From contig NZ_JACYFK010000002.1 in NCBI RefSeq assembly GCF_014855515.1, positions 744,001 to 808,000 of the forward strand: a stretch of DNA of 64,000 nt, written 5' to 3'. The translations under genes and the position numbers were made by a program. Below, in pieces: positions 28,480 through 63,963 of the stretch. The notes under the pieces were generated by a model. It did not search any database. It worked only from the letters and a program-made list of their open reading frames with translations, and had not been told where the DNA came from. Positions within the stretch are counted from its first letter, which is position 1. The number at the start of each line of letters is the position of its first letter. Origin of the DNA: Euzebyella marina (GTDB taxonomy: Bacteria > Bacteroidota > Bacteroidia > Flavobacteriales > Flavobacteriaceae).

Positions 28480-29169
28480 ATGGAAAAATTGAGAACAGTA
28501 ATTGTTGATGCTTCCGACAATCATAGAAATAAATTGTCACAATTAATTGAGGGCCATACGGCCCTTCAACATGAGGGTTCTTTTCGAAACGCCATTCATG
28601 CCAAAAAAGAAAGTATAGACCAGATTGCCGATATTGTCTTTTTAGACATAGAAATGCCTCTCATAAATGCTTTCGATTTAATCGACACTTTTCACGGAAA
28701 GCCAGAAATCATTTTACTCTGCGATAAGGCTGATTATGCTGCTAAAGCATTCGATTACCACATTACCGACTATTTATTAAAACCGGTCTCTTATGATAGA
28801 TTCAGAAAAGCGGTCAATCGAGCCAAAGAGAACCTCAAGTTAAGGGCAGATGCAGAAGAAAAGGCTCACTTCTTTGTCAAAAGTAACCTAAGAAAAGTTA
28901 AGATAAATTACTGCGATATCAAGTGGATAGAAGCATTGGGTGATTACATAAAATTGGTGACCCAAAAATCAAACCATGTGGTACTCAGCTCAATGAAGGC
29001 TTTTGAGAAAGAGTTACCTGCCGAACACTTTATAAGAATACACAAATCTTACATCATCAATATCAACCGTGTTCAAAACTTGAACCATGCTGTGGTCGAG
29101 GTTGAAGGTCATCAAATGCCTATAAGTCGCAAGAGGCGGTCTGAACTCATGCTGGCTTTGGGTCTTTAA
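28480..29169 (+). CDS. LytTR-type response regulator with an atypical receiver
   Basis: A 229-residue protein with an N-terminal receiver (1-120) and a C-terminal LytTR DNA-binding domain (about 135-229: DIKWIEALGDYIKL, HKSYIININRVQNL, MPISRKRRSEL). The phosphoacceptor Asp is kept in VFLDIEMP and the Lys in YLLKP. The usual acidic pair is degraded: VIVDASDN instead of VxDD. The switch Thr/Ser is a Cys in IILLCDK, where its tandem paralogue has IILITSK. So phosphorylation may be weak or absent. No histidine kinase is adjacent. Confidence 0.9.
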   Translation: MEKLRTVIVDASDNHRNKLSQLIEGHTALQHEGSFRNAIHAKKESIDQIADIVFLDIEMPLINAFDLIDTFHGKPEIILLCDKADYAAKAFDYHITDYLLKPVSYDRFRKAVNRAKENLKLRADAEEKAHFFVKSNLRKVKINYCDIKWIEALGDYIKLVTQKSNHVVLSSMKAFEKELPAEHFIRIHKSYIININRVQNLNHAVVEVEGHQMPISRKRRSELMLALGL

Positions 29170-29250
29170 AACTTTTATAGTTCATGAAAGTCAATAAATT
29201 TTGAGTATTTGGCAATATTGTTAATTGATCTTTATGAATTTGTAAAGTAG

Positions 29251-29258
29251 TATATTTG
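29251..29258 (+). promoter_or_regulatory. Likely -7 element of the second LytTR gene
   Basis: TATATTTG is a perfect TAnnTTTG, 108 bp upstream of the ATG at 29367. A weak TTG lies 23 bp upstream at 29225. The leader would be about 100 nt, unusually long for this window, and no stable fold is obvious in it. Confidence 0.5.
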
Positions 29259-29366
29259 CATATGGGGTGAACTAGAAGCAGAGCCCGGATTTTGATTCAC
29301 ATTCTACTTTCAAAAATGGTGAACTGAAATACCAAATTTGACCTCTGTTTCAATGAAAAAATAGAC

Positions 29367-30071
29367 ATGAGTATTCAAACACTGAAGTGCGTTGTTATTG
29401 ACGATTCAAAAACTCAAAGAACAGCGGTTTCAAAACTTATAAATGATCACAAGAATTTGGTCTTGATTGCTGACTATGAAAATGGCATCAAGGCACAAAA
29501 AGGGCTCGTTGATCAACAGATAGACCTTGTGTTCTTGGATATTGAAATGCCGGTTATCAACGGTTTTCAGTTTATGGAGGCTTTGAAAGACCGGCCACAG
29601 ATCATACTCATTACCTCAAAGGCCGATTATGCCATGCAGGCTTTCGATTATGATGTTACCGATTATCTTCTCAAGCCTATCAATTTTGAAAGGTTCAACA
29701 AGTCGGTACAAAAGGCTATTTTGAGAACCAAAGGTGCCCCAAATGAAGAAGAGGGCCATATTTTCGTGAACAGTAAGCTGAAAAGAGTAAAAGTCTATCT
29801 GAAAGACATTCGTTGGATCGAAGGTCTTGGTGATTATCTTAAAATCATAACTGATAATGAAAACTTATTGGTTTTAAGTACCATGAAAGGTTTTATGACG
29901 CAGCTTCCTTCTGACGATTTTTTACGAATTCATAAATCGTATATCATAAACCTGAATCGTGTAGACCGCTATAACAGTCAGTATGTGGAGCTATGCGGAG
30001 AACAAATTCCTTTAAGCCGTCATAAAAAACTAGAACTGGAAGAAGCCCTATTGAACACCTCTGTTCACTAG
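29367..30071 (+). CDS. LytTR-type response regulator
   Basis: A 234-residue receiver plus LytTR protein, a clear paralogue of the preceding gene. The receiver is complete: VIDDSKT, VFLDIEMPVINGF, ITSKADY and YLLKPINF. The LytTR domain shows DIRWIEGLGDYLKI, HKSYIINLNRV and IPLSRHKKLEL. It likely regulates transcription in response to a LytS/YehU-type kinase located elsewhere. Its TAG stop overlaps the convergent galK stop codon. Confidence 0.93.
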   Translation: MSIQTLKCVVIDDSKTQRTAVSKLINDHKNLVLIADYENGIKAQKGLVDQQIDLVFLDIEMPVINGFQFMEALKDRPQIILITSKADYAMQAFDYDVTDYLLKPINFERFNKSVQKAILRTKGAPNEEEGHIFVNSKLKRVKVYLKDIRWIEGLGDYLKIITDNENLLVLSTMKGFMTQLPSDDFLRIHKSYIINLNRVDRYNSQYVELCGEQIPLSRHKKLELEEALLNTSVH

Positions 30072-44964: not shown

Positions 44965-45636
44965 TTAAACCAAATTAAATTCTTGGGCTTTTTTTGATAA
45001 ATCTATCAAGTTCTTTACCTCCATCTTACGCATTAAATTAAATCGATGGGTTTCTACGGTACGTTTGCTATTTTGCAGTTTTTCTGAGATTTGCTTATTT
45101 GTTAAACCAGAAAGAACCAGCTCTAAAACCTGTAATTCCTTATTGGTGAGGTCGAATGGGTTATTGCCAATTTTTGGTTTTGTAGTGGTTTCAACTATTT
45201 CTTTATTCGGATTGAGAAGGTTATTGACCAGTACATTTGAAATATCGCCACTGTAGTACTTGCCCCCTTCCCTAACCGTATGAATAGCTTTAATAAATTC
45301 GGTCTTATCAGTGTCTTTCAGTAAATAACCTTTGGCACCTGCACTAACTGACTGCAATATGTACTCTTCAGAATCATGCATGGAAAGAATGATACTTTTC
45401 ACTTGAGAATTATTGGCATTCAAGGCCTTGACCGCCTCTATACCTGTCATTTCAGGCATTCTAATATCAATAATCAACAGGTCAGGATTCTTTTCCTCGA
45501 CAAGTTTTAAAGCTTCCTTTCCATCAGCGCCCTCGCCAATGACCTCTAAATCTGATTCACTTTCTAATAAAGCCCTGATACCGTCGCGTACCAAAGAATG
45601 GTCATCGACTAGCACTATACTGGTAATTGTACTCAA
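44965..45636 (-). CDS. NarL/FixJ-type response regulator
   Basis: A 223-residue receiver plus LuxR-type helix-turn-helix protein. Receiver: VLVDDHSLVRDGI, LLIIDIRMPEMTG, ILSMHDSEEY, KGYLLKD. Output domain: LTNKELQVLELVLSGLTNKQI and SKRTVETHRFNLMRKM. The first codon in frame is TTG at 45636; no ATG is available, and a GTG at 45615 would remove the first strand. The same bases (TAATTTTG, 45641-45634) also resemble a -7 element, so the start is uncertain. Its likely partner is the HisKA_3 nitrate sensor kinase at 56121. Confidence 0.88.
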   Translation of the reverse strand: MSTITSIVLVDDHSLVRDGIRALLESESDLEVIGEGADGKEALKLVEEKNPDLLIIDIRMPEMTGIEAVKALNANNSQVKSIILSMHDSEEYILQSVSAGAKGYLLKDTDKTEFIKAIHTVREGGKYYSGDISNVLVNNLLNPNKEIVETTTKPKIGNNPFDLTNKELQVLELVLSGLTNKQISEKLQNSKRTVETHRFNLMRKMEVKNLIDLSKKAQEFNLV

Positions 45637-56120: not shown

Positions 56121-57968
56121 GTGGAAGAAAAAAAGTACCATAAATCACTTGATAATGCGACCTTTTTACGTATTCGCAAATGGTATCTTTTGGCACTTGC
56201 CGGTATAGCCTTGACCATTGTAGTAGCCCAAATTCTTATTCAAAGCCACTTAAATTCTCAATTGAGTGATTCTAGAATCATCAATGTAGCAGGAAGGCAG
56301 AGGGCCTATAGTCAAAAATTGGCCAAAGAAGTTCTACTGATCAATAACTCCGATAATAGCAAAGAAATTTCTGAACAGATAGCCAACCTGAAAGAAACGG
56401 TTAGAATTTGGTCTATATCGCATTTGGCCCTTCAAAAAGGCAACGACTCCATTAATTTACCGGTTGAGAACCATCCTGAAATTTTAGAATTATTTAGCGA
56501 ATTAGATCCTCACCATGAGGCGATGGTCTCAGCTGCACGCCAAGTTATAGCATTACATGGTGATGAAAAACTGGAAAAGGCGCAATTAAAAACGCTTACA
56601 GAGAGGGTTTTAAATAACGAGTCGGCCTTTTTGTTATTGATGGATAATATTGTGAACGAATACGATATTAGAAGTAAACATCAACTTGAAAACCTTAAGC
56701 AAAAAGAATATGTTCTCTTAGGTATTTCATTACTTATTTTACTACTGGAGATTATTTTCATTTTCAGGCCACTATCCCTACAAATACGAAAAACGATTGC
56801 CCGTCTAGTGGAGAGCACCCGCAAGTTTGAAAATCAGGCAAAAGAGACCAAAAACATGTTCTTGGAAAAAGAAAAGTCGCTCAAAGATTTACAAGAATTA
56901 AATTTCGTAATAGATAATGCCGCCCTTTTTGCCAGTGCCCGTCAAGACGGAAGCATTGTTTTCATCAGTAAAAAATTTCTAACACTTCTCGATCTCAAAC
57001 CCAACGAAATCAAAAAGCACATCTCAGAAATTTTGACCACCGAAGAAGGGCAGCAGCAATATTTAAAAGAGATTCTCAAAAACAACAGAAAAAATGTAAT
57101 ACGTACCGAAGAGATTAAGATTGTTACCGTGAAAGGCAACCATTACTGGCTTGACGTATCAATAGTACCTATGCATCAATCGAGCGAGCGACAAAGCGTT
57201 TTGATATTATGCTCAGACATAACCGAACGAAAAGAAAATGCCTTAAAGGTAGAACAACTTACCCAACAGAACTTCGAGGAGCGTATGCGCCAGAAGAAAA
57301 TTCAGGCAAGCCAAATTGTTGAGGGCCAAGAACAAGAGCGTAAAAGAATCGCCAAAGATATTCATGATGGTATCGGGCAAATGCTTACGGCACTTAAGTT
57401 CAATATAGAGTCTATAGACCCGGAAAATGTTGAAAAGACTACCGAAAAAGTTGAATACCTCAAATCGTTATCATCAGACCTGATCAAGGGCATTCGCACC
57501 GCAACCTTTAATTTAACTCCTCCAGAACTGGGGGATCATGGCCTTTTTCCTGCCCTTCATAAAATGACGGGAGAATTGGCAAAACTGACCGGTAAGAACA
57601 TTCTTTTTGAAAACAGAACCGATGACCATATTCGTTTTGATTCCCTCGCAGAGACCAATATTTATCGCGTAACACAAGAGGCGGTAAATAACGCCATTAA
57701 ATACGCCCAGGCCAATTATATTTTGGTGACTATCAATTACAAAGAAGGTATTTTAAGTGTTGTAATCGATGATGATGGAAAGGGATTTGACCCCAAAAGG
57801 ATTTCGAGCGCCCCAAAAAACAACGGAGGTGGCGGTATGGGACTCTTTTATATGAAGGAACGGATCAGTTACATCAATGGTCGATTGTTCATCAATTCAG
57901 AACCAGGCAGTGGCACAAGGGTTACTATCAATTATAAAACAGAACATAAAGAAATTGTAAATACATAG
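56121..57968 (+). CDS. NarX-like sensor histidine kinase
   Basis: A 615-residue membrane kinase. Domain order: transmembrane helix (about 20-40), periplasmic sensor helix bundle of the type IV pili methyl-accepting/NarX family (NVAGRQRAYSQKLAKEVLLI near 52-71), second transmembrane helix (about 193-215), coiled coil, PAS domain (about 265-370), HisKA_3 with phosphorylated His in KRIAKDIHDGIGQMLTAL, and an HATPase domain (DDDGKGFDPKR, GGGGMGLFYMKERI). The HisKA_3 class works with NarL-type regulators. Start is GTG at 56121, preceded by GAGG, with no ATG in frame nearby. Nitrate sensing is inferred from domain and context. Confidence 0.92.
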   Translation: MEEKKYHKSLDNATFLRIRKWYLLALAGIALTIVVAQILIQSHLNSQLSDSRIINVAGRQRAYSQKLAKEVLLINNSDNSKEISEQIANLKETVRIWSISHLALQKGNDSINLPVENHPEILELFSELDPHHEAMVSAARQVIALHGDEKLEKAQLKTLTERVLNNESAFLLLMDNIVNEYDIRSKHQLENLKQKEYVLLGISLLILLLEIIFIFRPLSLQIRKTIARLVESTRKFENQAKETKNMFLEKEKSLKDLQELNFVIDNAALFASARQDGSIVFISKKFLTLLDLKPNEIKKHISEILTTEEGQQQYLKEILKNNRKNVIRTEEIKIVTVKGNHYWLDVSIVPMHQSSERQSVLILCSDITERKENALKVEQLTQQNFEERMRQKKIQASQIVEGQEQERKRIAKDIHDGIGQMLTALKFNIESIDPENVEKTTEKVEYLKSLSSDLIKGIRTATFNLTPPELGDHGLFPALHKMTGELAKLTGKNILFENRTDDHIRFDSLAETNIYRVTQEAVNNAIKYAQANYILVTINYKEGILSVVIDDDGKGFDPKRISSAPKNNGGGGMGLFYMKERISYINGRLFINSEPGSGTRVTINYKTEHKEIVNT

Positions 57969-58441: not shown

Positions 58442-58511
58442 CCATTCGTCTACACTTATTTTCCATTCGTCTACAAATCGAATTTTTTCTATGAAGAATG
58501 TAGGTACTTTG
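58442..58511 (+). promoter_or_regulatory. LytTR operator and promoter A (receiver gene)
   Basis: Two identical repeats CCATTCGTCTACA at 58442-58454 and 58463-58475, 21 bp apart, followed by a -7 element GTACTTTG at 58504-58511 (41 bp from the second repeat start). CCATTCGTC differs by one base from the AlgR consensus CCGTTCGTC. No TTTG -33 element is seen, so the promoter should need an activator. Confidence 0.8.
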
Positions 58512-58534
58512 TTATTCACTTAATGAATTGCGCC

Positions 58535-58936
58535 ATGAAAATACTTTTTATAGAAGACGACCAAGTAGAGACCATGAAAATGAAACGGACCCTTGCCAAA
58601 CTGCAGTTAAAGCATGAGCTTATACTTGCTGAAAACGGTGAAGATGCCTTAAACAAATTAAAAGATAGCAGCAGACTACCTGATCTTATTTTGCTCGATC
58701 TTAATATGCCACGTATGAATGGCTGTGAATTTTTAAAAGCCATCAAGCAAGATAACAGCTACAAAAACATTCCTTCTGTGGTTTTGACCACCTCTCAAAA
58801 TAGGGATGATCTTCTGGACTGTTACAGCAGCGGAATAGCAGGTTATGTAACCAAACCTCTTAAATACGATGATTACGTCGAAAAAATGAGAAAGGTTTTT
58901 GCTTATTGGGAAGTTAACGACCTTCTAACCGTTTAA
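58535..58936 (+). CDS. Single-domain response regulator (Rcp1-like)
   Basis: A receiver of about 133 residues: LFIEDDQVETMKMKRTL, LILLDLNMPRMNGCEF, VVLTTSQNRDDL and GYVTKPLKYDDY. All phosphorylation residues are present. This type pairs with phytochrome-like or other histidine kinases and passes phosphate to a partner. ATG at 58535 puts the first strand at the N-terminus; ATG at 58523 is also possible. Its promoter carries a perfect LytTR-type direct repeat. Confidence 0.88.
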   Translation: MKILFIEDDQVETMKMKRTLAKLQLKHELILAENGEDALNKLKDSSRLPDLILLDLNMPRMNGCEFLKAIKQDNSYKNIPSVVLTTSQNRDDLLDCYSSGIAGYVTKPLKYDDYVEKMRKVFAYWEVNDLLTV

Positions 58937-59211
58937 ACGAATTTGATTCGGAAATTTTAAATTTCTTTATTTCTTCTTTTTTACTTGAAGCAAAACCTTG
59001 ACTACCGAAATTAAATGGCGTAATTGCTGGTCGTCTGTTTATATTGTGCACAAGTCTTTAAGCCCTTCTCGATTTATTAAATCAAATACTTAAGAAACAC
59101 AATTCTAGCCGCTTTCTTACCGTTTGTCTAGTAGCAAGTAGTTTAATTTTGTTAATAGCAAAATATTATTTGTAACTTAAACAGATAATATCGGTAGGTA
59201 ATTTCTTGACT
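58937..59211. other. Intergenic region before the LytTR regulator
   Basis: 275 bp of A+T-rich DNA. It contains one half-site-like CCGTTTGTC at 59120-59128, but without a partner 21 bp away and at a different distance (45 bp) from the nearest -7-like ATTATTTG (59165-59172). No gene or RNA is recognised. Confidence 0.5.
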
Positions 59212-59922
59212 ATGAACTGCATAATAGTTGATGATGAAGCAGCTGCTAGAGCAATAGTAGCCCAACTCTGTTCCAAAGAGTCTAATTTGAATGTAATCGA
59301 ACAATTTGAAAGTGCTGTAGAAGCTATCAAATTTTTAAATCAGAATACCGTCGACGTGGTATTTCTTGACATTCATATGCCAGGCTTTACAGGCGTTGAT
59401 TTTGTGCAGACCCTCAAGAACCCGCCGCATATTGTTCTGACCACTTCAGATACTGAGTTTGCCATCGAAGCTTATGAATATGAGGCCATAGTCGATTATA
59501 TCGTTAAGCCGATTACCCCAGAGCGTTTTCAAAAATGTATTGTAAAGCTTGAAAAGGTTATGAGCCGTGCTCCGAAAATAGAGAAAAGCGAGCCAAAAGA
59601 GCCGTCAAGTGAAAATGATTTGTACATCAATATTGACCGAAGGTTGATAAAGCTTAAATTAAACGATATTCAGGTTATTGAGGCCAAAGGTGACTATATT
59701 GAAATTAAGCTTGAAAAAGATACACATCGAGTACACACCACCCTTAAAAAAATAAAGGAAAAGCTTCCTGAGAAGACCTTTTTACAAATTCATCGCTCAT
59801 TCATTATCAACTTCACCAAGATTATAGATATTGAAGACAATAGCGTGTTGATAGGTAAAAACGTCGTACCTATCAGTCGTTCGAATAGACCGGAGCTCAT
59901 GAGAAGGCTTAATTTGGTCTAA
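59212..59922 (+). CDS. LytTR-type response regulator, candidate master regulator of the flanking promoters
   Basis: A 236-residue receiver plus LytTR protein. Receiver: IIVDDEAAARAIV, VVFLDIHMPGFTG, VLTTSDTE and DYIVKPITPERF, all complete. LytTR domain (about 145-236): DIQVIEAKGDYIEI, IHRSFIINFTKII, VPISRSNRPELM. LytTR domains bind two direct repeats about 21 bp apart; such repeats occur at three promoters around this gene. ATG at 59212 is chosen over TTG at 59206. No kinase is adjacent in the window. Confidence 0.93.
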   Translation: MNCIIVDDEAAARAIVAQLCSKESNLNVIEQFESAVEAIKFLNQNTVDVVFLDIHMPGFTGVDFVQTLKNPPHIVLTTSDTEFAIEAYEYEAIVDYIVKPITPERFQKCIVKLEKVMSRAPKIEKSEPKEPSSENDLYINIDRRLIKLKLNDIQVIEAKGDYIEIKLEKDTHRVHTTLKKIKEKLPEKTFLQIHRSFIINFTKIIDIEDNSVLIGKNVVPISRSNRPELMRRLNLV

Positions 59923-60023
59923 CCAGAATCCCCTCCTACTCCATTTCATTTAAAGTTTTCAGCACTAAACTGAAAGTTTGAATTACACCCTATTTTCAAA
60001 AAATATAAATCGACGGATAATAT

Positions 60024-60093
60024 CCATCCACCATAGGTAAACTACCACCCACCGATCCTGGCAATTTTTCTTCCTTTAAGTAACGGATATTCG
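60024..60093 (+). promoter_or_regulatory. LytTR operator and promoter B (DUF4114 gene)
   Basis: Degenerate repeats CCATCCACC (60024-60032) and CCACCCACC (60045-60053), 21 bp apart, with a -7-like element GATATTCG at 60086-60093, 41 bp from the second repeat start. Repeat similarity to CCATTCGTC is 6 and 5 of 9; the spacing is exactly as in sites A and C. Confidence 0.6.
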
Positions 60094-60120
60094 TAGCACC
60101 AAATCCAAAGACTTAACCCG

Positions 60121-62625
60121 ATGAAGAGATATTTACTTTGCCTACTAGCAGTTCTTTCTTTTAGTGTTGCATCTGCCCAGAACTATAATTTTTTGGGTTC
60201 TTACACTGCTGACGGAACTCCAGAATATTTTGATGAAAAAGATTCGGTTTCCCCCGAAACGCTGAGCATGATTGCCGACGCTCTTCCAGAGAGCTTTCCG
60301 GTGCCTCAGTACAACCCGCAGTATATCACCTCTGGCTACGATACTGATGTTATCTTGAACGAGAATGCAGATGTATGGGTAACTTTCGTAGCAGAGGGTG
60401 CGGGTTACAGAAATGTTTTAGGCTTCTATACCTATGATATCAATAACCCTTTAACCCAAGCCCCAAGCCCAGAGGATATAACCATTATCTTTCCGAACGT
60501 ATCGGCCAAAAATTCAGGTGGTAGCTTAGAAGCCGGACACAAGGTAAAAATAGGAACTTTCTCTGCCGGTACCGGTATCGGATGGGTTCTTTTGGCGAAC
60601 GGTTGGAACGGTTCACAGGTCACCTCAGGTCTTTGGCAACTGTATTCCGGAACGGCCTTTAATCCTGAACCACTCGAAAATCTTAGACATCACAACGTTC
60701 TTTTGAACGATCCTGATAATGAAAGAATTATTCTAGGTTTTGAAGATATTAGAAGAGATTACGCCAGCTGTGACAATGATTTTAATGATGCATTGTTCTA
60801 TATATCGGCCAACCCATATACGGCTATCAAAACTACCAACTTCAATAAAATAACCGACCATACCGATGTTAGTTCAGGTAATGACGGTGGTCTTGAAAGC
60901 AATGGTGATTTGGCCTCATTGATAGCGAAGAGAAACTTCGATAGAAATAAGAACAATACTTTTAAGAACACACAAAAGCGCCAGAGCAAGTACAGCAAAA
61001 AAACGTATAAGGGTAATGCCGCTATCGATGGAAGCTTAAATGCCTATTTTCCGGAGACCGGAATGTTCGGTGATGAATCGACCTATATTTCAAGTCCTGA
61101 CGACCTATTGGCAATCACAAATGCCAGCCGCATATTTTCAATTGATTATTATAGAGGCTATGGTCGCGTTGCCGCCGCACTTGCTACTGAAACCGTAGAC
61201 GGCGTTTACAACCATACCAAGACTATCTGCGATCGACTTAACGATTCAAAACTTCTTGACGTGCGAACGGTAGAGTTACAGGGTCACGAATTGGTCTACA
61301 CTCAATTGGAAAGAGCAAATGGCGATTTGGAATATGCGCTACTCTTTTCTGCAAAAATCGACGCAGACCATTACACAGTTTACAGCTTTTGGAATCTTGA
61401 CCAATATCCTGCCGGCGATTATATCAACTTTCAGGTATGGGGTCATAGTATGGGCCAGGTTAGTACGATGGTCAATCATATAATCGAACAATTGAACGAA
61501 GAAAAGGCGGTGAACCCCTTCAAGACCGAAAATATTCTGCCAACTGTTTTTATCAAAAACGGATTTTATAAGAACGGAAAGCTACACTTGAATGTGGTGA
61601 ACTCTTCTAAAGCCAGATCATTGAATATAAACTCAAATTACAAAGCCACTGAGCAGTCTGGTTTGAGCAAGTTTTCAAAGTCTATCTCGCTTAACGGCAA
61701 TTGGGAAGAAGAGGTTATTGTAGACACAGGTTTCTTGTTCGATGCAGGCATTTCGATAAAAGGTGATAATTCTCCCCAAATCGATGCCCTTTATTTAGCA
61801 GATGGGCCGTGGGGTGTTGATTATAATGCACAGGCCGATTCGATAGGGTCTTTTGAAATTACCAAACACGAAGGTAGCGTTCAAAAATCTGAAAATTATA
61901 TGGTAGAGCGAGGGGTAGCCCTCGACGGTGAAGTAAAAGAAACTATTAATATCTTTAGAAATCTCTTGGCCGGCGACCGTAACCTAAGCGTAGATGATTA
62001 CAGCTACCTACAGTTCAGCATCGAAAATGATACGCCCATAGAAGTGAGCCTGGTTACGGAGAACACTGCGGACTGGAGCAATCGATTAAGGCATCAAATT
62101 TCTGTTCACGATGAAGAGTCGGTAGTAAGCCTACATTTTTCAGACTTCACCGACGAATCAGGAAACCCAGTTCAGTTCAGCGAAATTAAATCAGTTGTTT
62201 TTTCGGTACAAGGTGATTATCATGGCTATCAGGAGTATTCCCTAAAAATCAACTCTATGGTTCTTAGCGCTGAAGGCTACACTCCCGCAGAAGAAGAGGT
62301 ACTTGAAGAAACCGAGGTTGCACAAACCACGGAAGCCGATTTAGAGACCATAGAAGAATTAGAGAACAACGAAGTAAAGGTGCGAAACTATCCCAACCCG
62401 TTTACGACACACACCAGCATCGATCTACCTAAATCAACTTCAAAGGTTGAAATAAGATTAACAAACACCGTAGGGGCCATGGTTTACCATAAAATGTTGC
62501 ATACCCAAGCGGGAGGTAGAACTGTCATGATAGAAGCCTCATCTCTGGTAAACGGTATCTACATATTTACGGTTTTAGATGCCGAAAATGGAAAAATCTA
62601 TCAAGGCAAAGTGATTAAAAATTAA
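60121..62625 (+). CDS. Large secreted DUF4114 protein with T9SS type A sorting domain
   Basis: An 834-residue protein. The signal peptide (LLCLLAVLSFSVASAQ) is followed by a DUF4114 domain (about 20-225) with the motif ILGFEDIRRDYASCDNDFND; then a region of unknown fold (about 300-720) with a Glu-rich linker, and a C-terminal sorting domain starting at RNYPNPFTTHTSIDLP. The tail sends it through the type IX system to the surface or medium. It is probably a surface adhesin or matrix protein. Its promoter shows LytTR-like repeats. Confidence 0.88.
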   Translation: MKRYLLCLLAVLSFSVASAQNYNFLGSYTADGTPEYFDEKDSVSPETLSMIADALPESFPVPQYNPQYITSGYDTDVILNENADVWVTFVAEGAGYRNVLGFYTYDINNPLTQAPSPEDITIIFPNVSAKNSGGSLEAGHKVKIGTFSAGTGIGWVLLANGWNGSQVTSGLWQLYSGTAFNPEPLENLRHHNVLLNDPDNERIILGFEDIRRDYASCDNDFNDALFYISANPYTAIKTTNFNKITDHTDVSSGNDGGLESNGDLASLIAKRNFDRNKNNTFKNTQKRQSKYSKKTYKGNAAIDGSLNAYFPETGMFGDESTYISSPDDLLAITNASRIFSIDYYRGYGRVAAALATETVDGVYNHTKTICDRLNDSKLLDVRTVELQGHELVYTQLERANGDLEYALLFSAKIDADHYTVYSFWNLDQYPAGDYINFQVWGHSMGQVSTMVNHIIEQLNEEKAVNPFKTENILPTVFIKNGFYKNGKLHLNVVNSSKARSLNINSNYKATEQSGLSKFSKSISLNGNWEEEVIVDTGFLFDAGISIKGDNSPQIDALYLADGPWGVDYNAQADSIGSFEITKHEGSVQKSENYMVERGVALDGEVKETINIFRNLLAGDRNLSVDDYSYLQFSIENDTPIEVSLVTENTADWSNRLRHQISVHDEESVVSLHFSDFTDESGNPVQFSEIKSVVFSVQGDYHGYQEYSLKINSMVLSAEGYTPAEEEVLEETEVAQTTEADLETIEELENNEVKVRNYPNPFTTHTSIDLPKSTSKVEIRLTNTVGAMVYHKMLHTQAGGRTVMIEASSLVNGIYIFTVLDAENGKIYQGKVIKN

Positions 62626-62696
62626 GTTTTTCGGTAGTGATTATAGACAGCACCCTTTTTTTATTTGGGTTCAAAGCGGTGCACAAGTCTCTTTTA

Positions 62697-62735
62697 AAGC
62701 AACCAGGTCAGGCGCATCTGGTTGCTTATTTTTTT
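62697..62735 (+). terminator. Terminator after the DUF4114 gene
   Basis: Arms AAGCAACCAG (62697-62706) and CTGGTTGCTT (62718-62727) with an 11-nt loop, followed by a T-run to 62735. Confidence 0.88.
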
Positions 62736-62785
62736 AGCGGTTATATCATCTGGTAGGCAAAAAATAGCTCAAAGAAAGAAATTAT

Positions 62786-62855
62786 CCATTCGTCTACAGA
62801 AAATTTCCATTGACCCATTTCTCTCTATTCAAGCATTGTTTACTAGTGATATTTG
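62786..62855 (+). promoter_or_regulatory. LytTR operator and promoter C (flippase-like gene)
   Basis: CCATTCGTCTACA at 62786-62798, identical to the site A repeats, and a weaker CCATTGACC at 62807-62815, 21 bp apart. The -7 element GATATTTG (62848-62855) starts 41 bp after the second repeat start, exactly as in sites A and B. Confidence 0.78.
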
Positions 62856-62889
62856 TTAGACAAACAGGTTGCTGAACAGCGCTTGTTCA

Positions 62890-63963
62890 ATGATAACAGA
62901 GAACACTGATAATATGGAAATTAATAGAACTTCCCCCGAAAGGTTGATCATAGGTAGTGCGCTTCTAGCTAATGGAAGCAGCTACCTATACAACCTTCTT
63001 CTGGGGCACATAATGGGCCCGGAGAGTTTTATGCTGAAGGCACATACCATTACGCTAATAATCTATTTTATTTTTTTGGGATTTTTGATTCGTCTTGCCT
63101 GGGGCAGACTGGGGCGATTATTTAATCTAACTTCAACATCACTAATAACAAATACCATGGGTTGCCGTATTACTTTTGCCTTACTTGCCGTTTTAGGTAT
63201 TCTATTTTTTTCAGAAGACTTCACGGCGTACTTTACTTTGCAGGAAGCCGGAATCTCTTTAGGAATAGGCATCGCATTTCCCGTCTGTATGATGAAGAAA
63301 GTTTTGCCCAAGAAACTTCAACCGCTATTCTTTGGCAACATAAAAAGAGTATCTCGAGAGCACACCAAAAAAATAATCTTCTTATTGCTATTGATTGCCG
63401 CTTACGAGCTCGCCCATATCTTTTTGAAGAATAGCGATATATTATTGGTGAGACAATATTTTAGCCAAACAGAAGCTACCCTTTATACGTCTATAGCGTT
63501 GGTCGGAAGGGGAATTTATTTAATCGCTTGGATTTTTTTAATCGTGATTGCCACCAAATTCGTCAATTATAAGAAGTCTGGCGTCTTAACGGCCACGGTC
63601 ATTAAAAAATACATCATGCGAACCGCCCTCTTGCTAATGGGTTTATTAATGGTTTGTTACTTATTTCCTGAACAGATTATTAATTATTTATTCGGTCCGG
63701 AATACTTATCAGTGGCCTCCTTTCTTTGGCAACATGCCTTAACGACTTCACTTTTTATAATGGCCAACATTTTCACATATTATTTCATGTTCTTAGGAGA
63801 GTACCTTCCCATTCTCTTTTCTGTGCTTGTAGGTATTGTTCAAATGTTACTAATGAGCATTTTCAATAGTAGTATGGATCTAGTGGTACAACTGCAAATA
63901 GTTGCCATGGTTGCACTTTTAACGGCCAACGCAATCTTCTTCTATAGCAGAACCATTAGGTAG
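62890..63963 (+). CDS. Integral membrane protein, oligosaccharide flippase-like, shorter than the family
   Basis: A protein of about 357 residues with 9-10 hydrophobic segments. The beginning YLYNLLLGHIMGPESFML and the later FLKNSDILLVRQYFS resemble the two halves of polysaccharide flippases (MATE/Wzx/PelG-like), which are normally 420-480 residues. The middle of the first half seems to be missing, so it may be condensed or carry an in-frame deletion. ATG at 62890 is chosen (62914 also possible). It is the first gene of a cluster that likely continues past the right edge. No downstream terminator is seen. Confidence 0.72.
   Translation: MITENTDNMEINRTSPERLIIGSALLANGSSYLYNLLLGHIMGPESFMLKAHTITLIIYFIFLGFLIRLAWGRLGRLFNLTSTSLITNTMGCRITFALLAVLGILFFSEDFTAYFTLQEAGISLGIGIAFPVCMMKKVLPKKLQPLFFGNIKRVSREHTKKIIFLLLLIAAYELAHIFLKNSDILLVRQYFSQTEATLYTSIALVGRGIYLIAWIFLIVIATKFVNYKKSGVLTATVIKKYIMRTALLLMGLLMVCYLFPEQIINYLFGPEYLSVASFLWQHALTTSLFIMANIFTYYFMFLGEYLPILFSVLVGIVQMLLMSIFNSSMDLVVQLQIVAMVALLTANAIFFYSRTIR

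Follow-up and report, generated by a model that had tools for sequence, protein, structure and literature searches.

Spaced direct repeats and a LytTR regulator at putative surface-polysaccharide genes of Euzebyella marina and related marine flavobacteria

LytTR regulators are described as binding repeats of 9 to 11 nt separated by 11- to 13-nt spacers (PMC4847170). The spacers are mostly 12 bp, and the sites show a bias to 10 bp upstream of the -35 element (PMC6193735). Bacteroidota promoters have a -7 consensus TANNTTTG, and the -33 motif is weak in F. johnsoniae promoters generally (PMC6847099). A 64,000-nucleotide stretch of the Euzebyella marina genome (contig NZ_JACYFK010000002.1, positions 744,001 to 808,000; G000:C2:744001-808000 of 4,672,668 bases), referred to as the window, was analysed for a LytTR response regulator gene, named 59212 after its start, and for the paired direct repeats in the promoters around it. 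By gene and site geometry this is a predicted LytTR direct-repeat regulon. Marine flavobacteria appear to turn on surface-sugar genes via a LytTR protein that would read such spaced repeats. In most of the relatives examined the LytTR gene stands beside putative nitric oxide (NO) sensors, which suggests a gas-to-polysaccharide circuit.

The half-site geometry of 9 bp plus a 12-bp spacer agrees with the LytTR sites in PMC4847170, PMC6193735 and PMC11347149 and falls within the 9-bp repeats and 10- to 13-bp spacers of activating LytTR promoters. The YpdB, HdrR/BrsR and other direct-repeat promoters (PMC4847170, PMC6193735) are alike in their 9-bp repeats, 12-bp spacer, position upstream of the polymerase site and LytTR regulator. 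They differ from the present promoters, which have a Bacteroidota -7-like element in place of -35/-10 boxes, a recurrent +45 phase to TTTG and one half-site across many genera, and which would receive input via an HPT relay rather than a LytS-type kinase. AlgR of Pseudomonas aeruginosa (PMC4064291) shares the LytTR regulator, an exopolysaccharide output and a half-site, CCGTTCGTC, that is one base from CCATTCGTC. As described there, AlgR sites are scattered and single, some lie hundreds of bp from the start, either orientation occurs and no tandem 21-bp layout is given. The sites found here are neither scattered nor single, and the consensus CCGTTCGTC is not matched exactly. The original prediction, made from the letters of the window, had suggested that the switch may be AlgR-like. 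The likeness is confined to the half-site and the output, and does not extend to the pairing and fixed phase of the sites.

Repeats were found upstream of the genes for a receiver protein, a secreted DUF4114 protein and a flippase-like protein (Table 1). All coordinates predicted for the three repeat pairs and -7 elements were correct, as was the identity of three of the six half-sites (CCATTCGTCTACA, exact at 58442, 58463 and 62786). Each -7-like octamer begins 41 bp past the start of the second repeat, which itself ends 36 bp ahead of the -7 TTTG and so lies upstream of the -33 region. A fourth promoter with identical 21-bp/41-bp geometry and the octamer GAACTTTG was located beyond the window end, at G000:C2:808123, upstream of a glycosyltransferase gene; because it lies outside the window, the earlier reading was not fitted to it. 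Compared with TANNTTTG, the octamers GTACTTTG, GATATTCG, GATATTTG and GAACTTTG have TTTG in three of four cases and the leading T in none. The pair at 60024 has 3 + 4 mismatches to CCATTCGTC (hand count), the -7 element there reads TTCG, and the pair was not recovered by the genome scan at up to three mismatches. In favour of this site, both congeners (L044, L045) hold a similar pair there, with TTTG.

The genome scan for pairs used the pattern CCATTCGTC-N12-CCATTCGTC, with the reversed pattern as control. TTTG offsets were measured from the start of the second repeat. The exact 13-mer CCATTCGTCTACA has five copies in the window genome, four at the receiver (two), flippase and glycosyltransferase promoters and one inside a sulfatase gene. 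One mismatch added two further places, and the reversed control gave two. At up to three mismatches the 13-mer was only mildly enriched in the window (22 matches against 14 +/- 4 in shuffles, 4/100 of which were as high). The above-chance signal is the pair plus its phase. Eight pairs with at most three mismatches were found in the genome, against two for the reversed pattern, and three of the eight lie in this cluster. TTTG stood at +45 in all three cluster pairs and in none of the other five, each checked on its own strand. Four of those five lie within open reading frames (ORFs). The fifth (L037; G000:C1:195401) has three mismatches and TTTG at +42; it precedes an ORF of 361 aa in the neighbourhood of another LytTR gene and is possibly the related code of a LytTR paralogue.

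Nine whole genomes yielded 60 reported pairs at up to three mismatches, of which 30 were examined. TTTG lay exactly at +45 in four of these, L185, L194, L195 (LytTR locus) and L213 (3.6 kb beyond the locus end), whereas L187, L198 and L207, which are unrelated places, had it at +44, +46 and +64. The search for the same geometry at unrelated places in its own and nine other genomes, named in the original prediction as a refuting condition, did not refute the regulon reading, with the bare pair counts given below as a caveat. Two Allomuricauda genomes held 17 and 16 such pairs, mostly of another repeat. The Allomuricauda pairs L187, L188, L196, L197, L204, L205, L211 and L212 lie outside the LytTR locus, many are of CCATCCGTCAATTCAAACGG type, and none of the eight has TTTG exactly at +45.

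The code was followed across loci of LytTR orthologues, the best 80 of 545 from species genomes (61-86% identity to the 59212 protein, flanks of at most 10 kb). Counts refer to 78 loci (L051-L128 minus L079, plus L046); L049, L050 (G002) and L079 (G001) were excluded as belonging to a relocated type described below. The 78 loci are mutually related, so that counts among them are not independent events. Sequence upstream of the receiver gene was sufficient in 77, and the smaller denominators for other promoters arise partly from loci that end within 10 kb of the LytTR gene. With both strands searched, pairs with at most two mismatches numbered 29 at 21 bp, while each of the other spacings between 10 and 40 gave no more than one. 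At up to three mismatches the numbers were 78 and no more than five.

Pairs at 21 bp with at most four mismatches lay upstream of the receiver gene in 57/77 loci, the flippase gene in 21/47, the glycosyltransferase gene in 17/43 and the genes for the DUF4114 protein and its relatives in 8/43 (3/14 close orthologues and 5/29 weaker relatives). Spacings of 17-20 and 22-25 gave at most 13 receiver, 2 flippase, 4 glycosyltransferase and 5 DUF4114-group promoters. On the opposite strand, no 21-bp pair of this quality was found upstream of the receiver, flippase or glycosyltransferase genes. None was found upstream of the genes for HPT (0/55), LytTR (0/78), the glycoside hydrolase (0/17) or the large membrane protein (0/8). 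For the TPR/outer-membrane gene, own-strand pairs were absent (0/55) and the other strand gave 25/55, which are the sites of the divergent flippase. A half-site CCGTTTGTC near 59120, upstream of the window LytTR gene itself, was considered and rejected: it is single, and none of the 78 relatives has a pair with at most four mismatches there.

TTTG was at +45 in 17/21 flippase promoters with a pair, and among glycosyltransferase promoters with a pair at +45 in 8/17 and at +66 in another 8/17. Spacing and TTTG offset were also tabulated jointly at up to four mismatches, with overlapping pairs within triple repeats scored separately. There were 45 occurrences at (21, +45) and 21 at (21, +66), against a mean of 0.17 and a maximum of 13 in the 960 cells with other spacing. 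In the four commonest off-spacing cells, spacing plus offset always equals 66, so that these seem to be those same promoters counted in another register. In promoters with TTTG at +64 to +66, a weak likeness to the half-site is seen in the 9-mer one repeat period on (mean mismatches out of nine 5.2 against 7.0 at shifted places for receiver promoters, 5.3 against 6.8 for glycosyltransferase promoters). Both congeners retain the 21-bp pair at the receiver, DUF4114 and flippase promoters. No TTTG was found 15-30 bp after the second half-site in the 21 flippase promoters with a pair. This is in line with the predicted dependence on an activator, for which it is weak evidence since the -33 motif is weak in F. 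johnsoniae generally.

The usual gene order in the related loci is receiver - H-NOX - kinase - (FIST - kinase) - HPT - LytTR. The LytTR gene is often followed by genes for a TPR/outer-membrane protein (opposite strand), STAS proteins, flippase, glycosyltransferase, a glycoside-hydrolase-like protein and a large membrane protein. Presence required at least 100 bits for H-NOX and for the receiver and at least 400 bits for FIST. Receiver, HPT and LytTR genes were present in all 78 loci, H-NOX in 73, FIST in 36 (41 counting weak matches), the TPR/outer-membrane protein in 59, flippase in 47 and glycosyltransferase in 41. The loci encode together the parts of a putative multistep relay (kinase, receiver, HPT, output receiver), of which the window has the receiver and LytTR only. 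Since relay genes with H-NOX, and often with FIST, occur in most of the 78 loci, NO would be the most likely signal, judging by the HNOB and FIST families and by the role that has been described for proteins belonging to them (PMC6769237, PMC8738867).

The networks known from Shewanella and Vibrio, among them H-NOX - HqsK - LuxU - LuxO (PMC6769237, PMC8738867), are alike in having H-NOX beside a kinase, a phosphotransfer step and a biofilm-related output. Their outputs, as described there, are cyclic di-GMP enzymes, LuxO or HnoC, whereas here the output would be a LytTR regulator beside polysaccharide genes. RcoM/CoxC (PMC11347149) resemble the present case in a LytTR output linked to a diatomic gas and in triplet repeats. 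In those proteins the sensor is fused to LytTR and the signal is carbon monoxide, whereas here separate H-NOX and FIST proteins would act through a phosphorelay. A search of the open-access literature, which left subscription journals uncovered, found, among the papers listed, none presented as an H-NOX or NosP protein feeding a LytTR regulator. The outputs of NO sensors in Bacteroidota seem little described.

In four loci (L100, L102, L109, L115) other, Wzx/Wzy-like polysaccharide genes stand behind LytTR, and 21-bp pairs with TTTG at +44/+45 or +65/+66 are present. The exchanged genes encode a nucleotide-sugar dehydrogenase (tested in L100 and L109), a receiver-sugar transferase fusion (tested in L102 and L109), an epimerase, an outer-membrane efflux protein, a chain-length/ATPase-type protein, a flippase and, in L115, an O-antigen-ligase-type protein; the families were confirmed for part of these genes. 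The polysaccharide genes of the related loci and of these four agree with the earlier expectation that the targets have surface polysaccharide functions.

Receiver domains fused to a family 2 glycosyltransferase or a bacterial sugar transferase were also seen in or beside polysaccharide loci (L159:9266-10402, L109:13888-15066, L102:13869-15053). Two small STAS-type proteins are encoded before the flippase at L046:7062-7677 and have relatives in many loci; Pfam confirms STAS for one L115 copy. They suggest an additional partner-switch layer.

A second locus was found on contig C4 of the window genome. It comprises receiver, H-NOX, kinase, FIST, kinase, HPT, TPR/outer-membrane protein, flippase and glycosyltransferase genes. 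The sensor copies match HNOB (PF07700, E 4.2e-39), with a kinase directly after, and FIST (E 3.9e-40). The H-NOX sequence has a histidine and a YSSSR segment, as expected of an H-NOX protein. No LytTR match was found at the C4 locus, and no pair better than five mismatches in 16.5 kb (at least seven in the intergenic regions examined). The corresponding loci of about 5 kb in G001, G002 and Pseudozobellia (G099) keep HPT and likewise gave no LytTR match and no pair better than five mismatches. In the window genome, G001, G002 and G099, the LytTR gene and repeats are located elsewhere, behind a nitrite-reductase-linked kinase, with site mismatches of 0, 0, 1 and 1. The one place thus lacks both the gene and its sites and the other has both, so that the two moved jointly.

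On this comparison the window locus is a relocated, reduced copy, with sensors and HPT remaining on C4. This status, the fourth promoter and the wider H-NOX/FIST/HPT/kinase locus lay beyond the window and hence outside the original prediction. Its claim of a local LytTR regulon is supported by two observations: own-genome pairs with TTTG at +45 occur only around this gene, and in the relocating lineage the sites are found where the gene is and missing where it is not. Gene order in both congeners is kinase-DUF7009-receiver-LytTR-flippase-glycosyltransferase, plus an N-terminal DUF4114 piece. In a glycosyltransferase tree (43 rows), long branches carry the window copy and those of the congeners, at a distance from the C4 copy, which joins the others. 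The tree speaks for fast evolution and does not reveal where the copies came from.

As a whole, we consider it probable that the 59212 LytTR protein reads the repeats and activates surface-polysaccharide promoters, and that it is fed by a relay with NO as the likely signal. H-NOX and often FIST (NosP-type) proteins, with their kinases, would pass phosphate to the receiver, then to HPT and then to the LytTR protein. Once phosphorylated, this protein would occupy a pair of 9-bp half-sites separated by two helical turns. The start of the second is 45 bp ahead of the TTTG in the -7 element; some relatives have their best pair one repeat period farther out (+64 to +66) and a weak third half-site in the gap. 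Bound protein would recruit RNA polymerase to promoters that lack a clear -33 element. Predicted targets are the receiver gene (feedback), the flippase gene, the glycosyltransferase gene outside the window and, less surely, the gene for the secreted DUF4114 protein. In the window lineage the receiver-LytTR pair, located behind nirBD-DUF4202-kinase, may control a reduced set of fast-evolving copies with predicted sugar functions, and the C4 sensors and HPT would act on it in trans.

Several observations weigh against this account. The own-genome H-NOX relay is on another contig, and the nearest kinase to LytTR is NarX-like. No H-NOX match of 100 bits was found in 5/78 loci (L046, L087, L101, L115, L127). 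TTTG is at +45 in only 7/57 receiver promoters with a pair and at +64 to +66 in 16/57, and the third half-site invoked for the latter arrangement is weak. Glycosyltransferase sites are degenerate in both congeners, with TTTG at +46 (hand count). The DUF4114 gene, named as a target in the original prediction, has a similar pair in the congeners and is a weak case outside the genus: a good pair precedes 3/14 of its close orthologues. Many loci are drawn from few genera, and the relocation is probably one event. Bare pair counts against the reversed control were 7 and 6 in G100, 2 and 10 in G107, and 4 and 7 in G110; as counts are no higher than the control in several genomes, a match without phase means little.

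The least improbable alternative, itself unlikely, is rewiring. The adjacent NarX-like kinase (PilJ-PAS-HisKA_3) behind nirBD would drive the window LytTR pair, and the regulon would answer nitrate/nitrite instead of the C4 H-NOX relay. Kinase, DUF7009, receiver and LytTR are indeed adjacent and in the same direction in G000, G001, G002, G013 and Pseudozobellia (L049). However, the kinase follows nirD and DUF4202 in 19/19 genomes with a match at E <= 1e-60 (99 searched), and receiver-LytTR follows it in just 4/19. In two relatives examined, the gene behind this kinase encodes a receiver-GerE (NarL-type) regulator, and the window genome retains such a regulator at window positions 44968-45621 (-), 10.5 kb from the kinase (56121-57968), of which it is the likely partner. 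The nirD/DUF4202 linkage and GerE neighbours indicate that the NarX-like kinase is probably not the original LytTR partner. In addition, a repeat-bearing promoter lies between DUF7009 and the receiver.

Repression by the LytTR protein at the same sites seems distinctly unlikely. CoxC is a known LytTR repressor whose operator overlaps the -35 box (PMC11347149), whereas the second repeat here lies upstream of the -33 region, the activating LytTR position (PMC6193735), and the flippase promoters have no TTTG near -33. It would be more surprising still if another LytTR protein read the repeats and the 59212 gene were a bystander. The genome has 20 LytTR domain matches, a point that also counts against the preferred account, and the C1:195401 pair noted above stands near one of these other genes. 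The repeats and a 59212-type gene nevertheless occur together across related loci, through relocation and through exchange of target genes. It is scarcely credible that these are simply dispersed repeats with no part in regulation. The two pair-rich Allomuricauda genomes would fit it, many of their pairs differing in extended sequence, whereas the exact 13-mer in the window genome is limited to three promoters and one coding match, and strand bias and phase to TTTG are strong.

The flippase-like protein itself had no Pfam match. It is 32% identical over 396 aligned positions to a relative matching Polysacc_synt_3. NCBIfam, with which a Pel-type classification was attempted, gave nothing above cut-off for the flippase or the glycosyltransferase. 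Close orthologues of the DUF4114 protein (at least 45% identity) were found in 14 of the 78 loci and a 26-34% relative in 29 more; in nearly all of the latter the alignment starts at about residue 243 and leaves out the DUF4114 domain. A DUF4114-centred system was rejected because a close orthologue is present in so few loci, which points to an occasional target and not to a core component. In the congeners (L044:8269-8544, L045:9347-9619) the DUF4114 protein is cut to about its first 95 residues and the promoter repeats are kept. Two tandem LytTR genes at window positions 28489-30038 are 31% identical to the 59212 protein.

Table 1. Genes and promoter elements of the LytTR locus, in window coordinates.
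Feature	Position	Strand	Details
LytTR-type direct repeats, receiver-gene promoter	58442..58475	+	two exact CCATTCGTCTACA, 21 bp apart; starts 58442/58463
-7-like octamer, receiver promoter	58504..58511	+	GTACTTTG; TTTG at +45
Stand-alone receiver protein	58523..58936	+	Response_reg only, PF00072 E 3.3e-22; ATG at 58535 fits relatives
LytTR response regulator, proposed reader of the repeats	59212..59922	+	PF00072 E 2.4e-20 and PF04397 E 2.2e-18 in 59212-59919
Degenerate pair, DUF4114 promoter	60024..60057	+	CCATCCACC / CCACCCACC, 21 bp apart; starts 60024/60045; weakest of the set
-7-like octamer, DUF4114 promoter	60086..60093	+	GATATTCG; GATATTTG in both congeners
Secreted DUF4114 protein, type IX sorting tail	60121..62625	+	PF13448 E 6.2e-19, PF18962 E 5.9e-8, TIGR04183
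Repeat pair, flippase promoter	62786..62819	+	CCATTCGTCTACA / CCATTGACC, 21 bp apart; starts 62786/62807
-7-like octamer, flippase promoter	62848..62855	+	GATATTTG; TTTG at +45
Flippase-like membrane protein, polysaccharide transporter superfamily	62869..63963	+	start TTG 62869, ATG 62890 or ATG 62914

The motif with its phase rule predicted a promoter outside the window, and the locus offers a natural case of a regulator and its sites moving jointly. Beyond the window lineage, we lean slightly towards an NO-to-exopolysaccharide circuit that is widespread in the Flavobacteriaceae. In such a circuit, H-NOX and FIST/NosP kinases would feed one receiver-HPT-LytTR relay, and its output protein would bring along a promoter code of its own (repeats 21 bp apart, with TTTG at +45 or one period on). 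Code and LytTR gene would travel together, act on polysaccharide clusters of at least two dissimilar kinds and, in the window lineage, have jumped beside nitrite reductase genes. Sensors, relay, output protein, DNA code and targets can all be read from sequence, and the proposed circuit is therefore testable in culturable marine bacteria.

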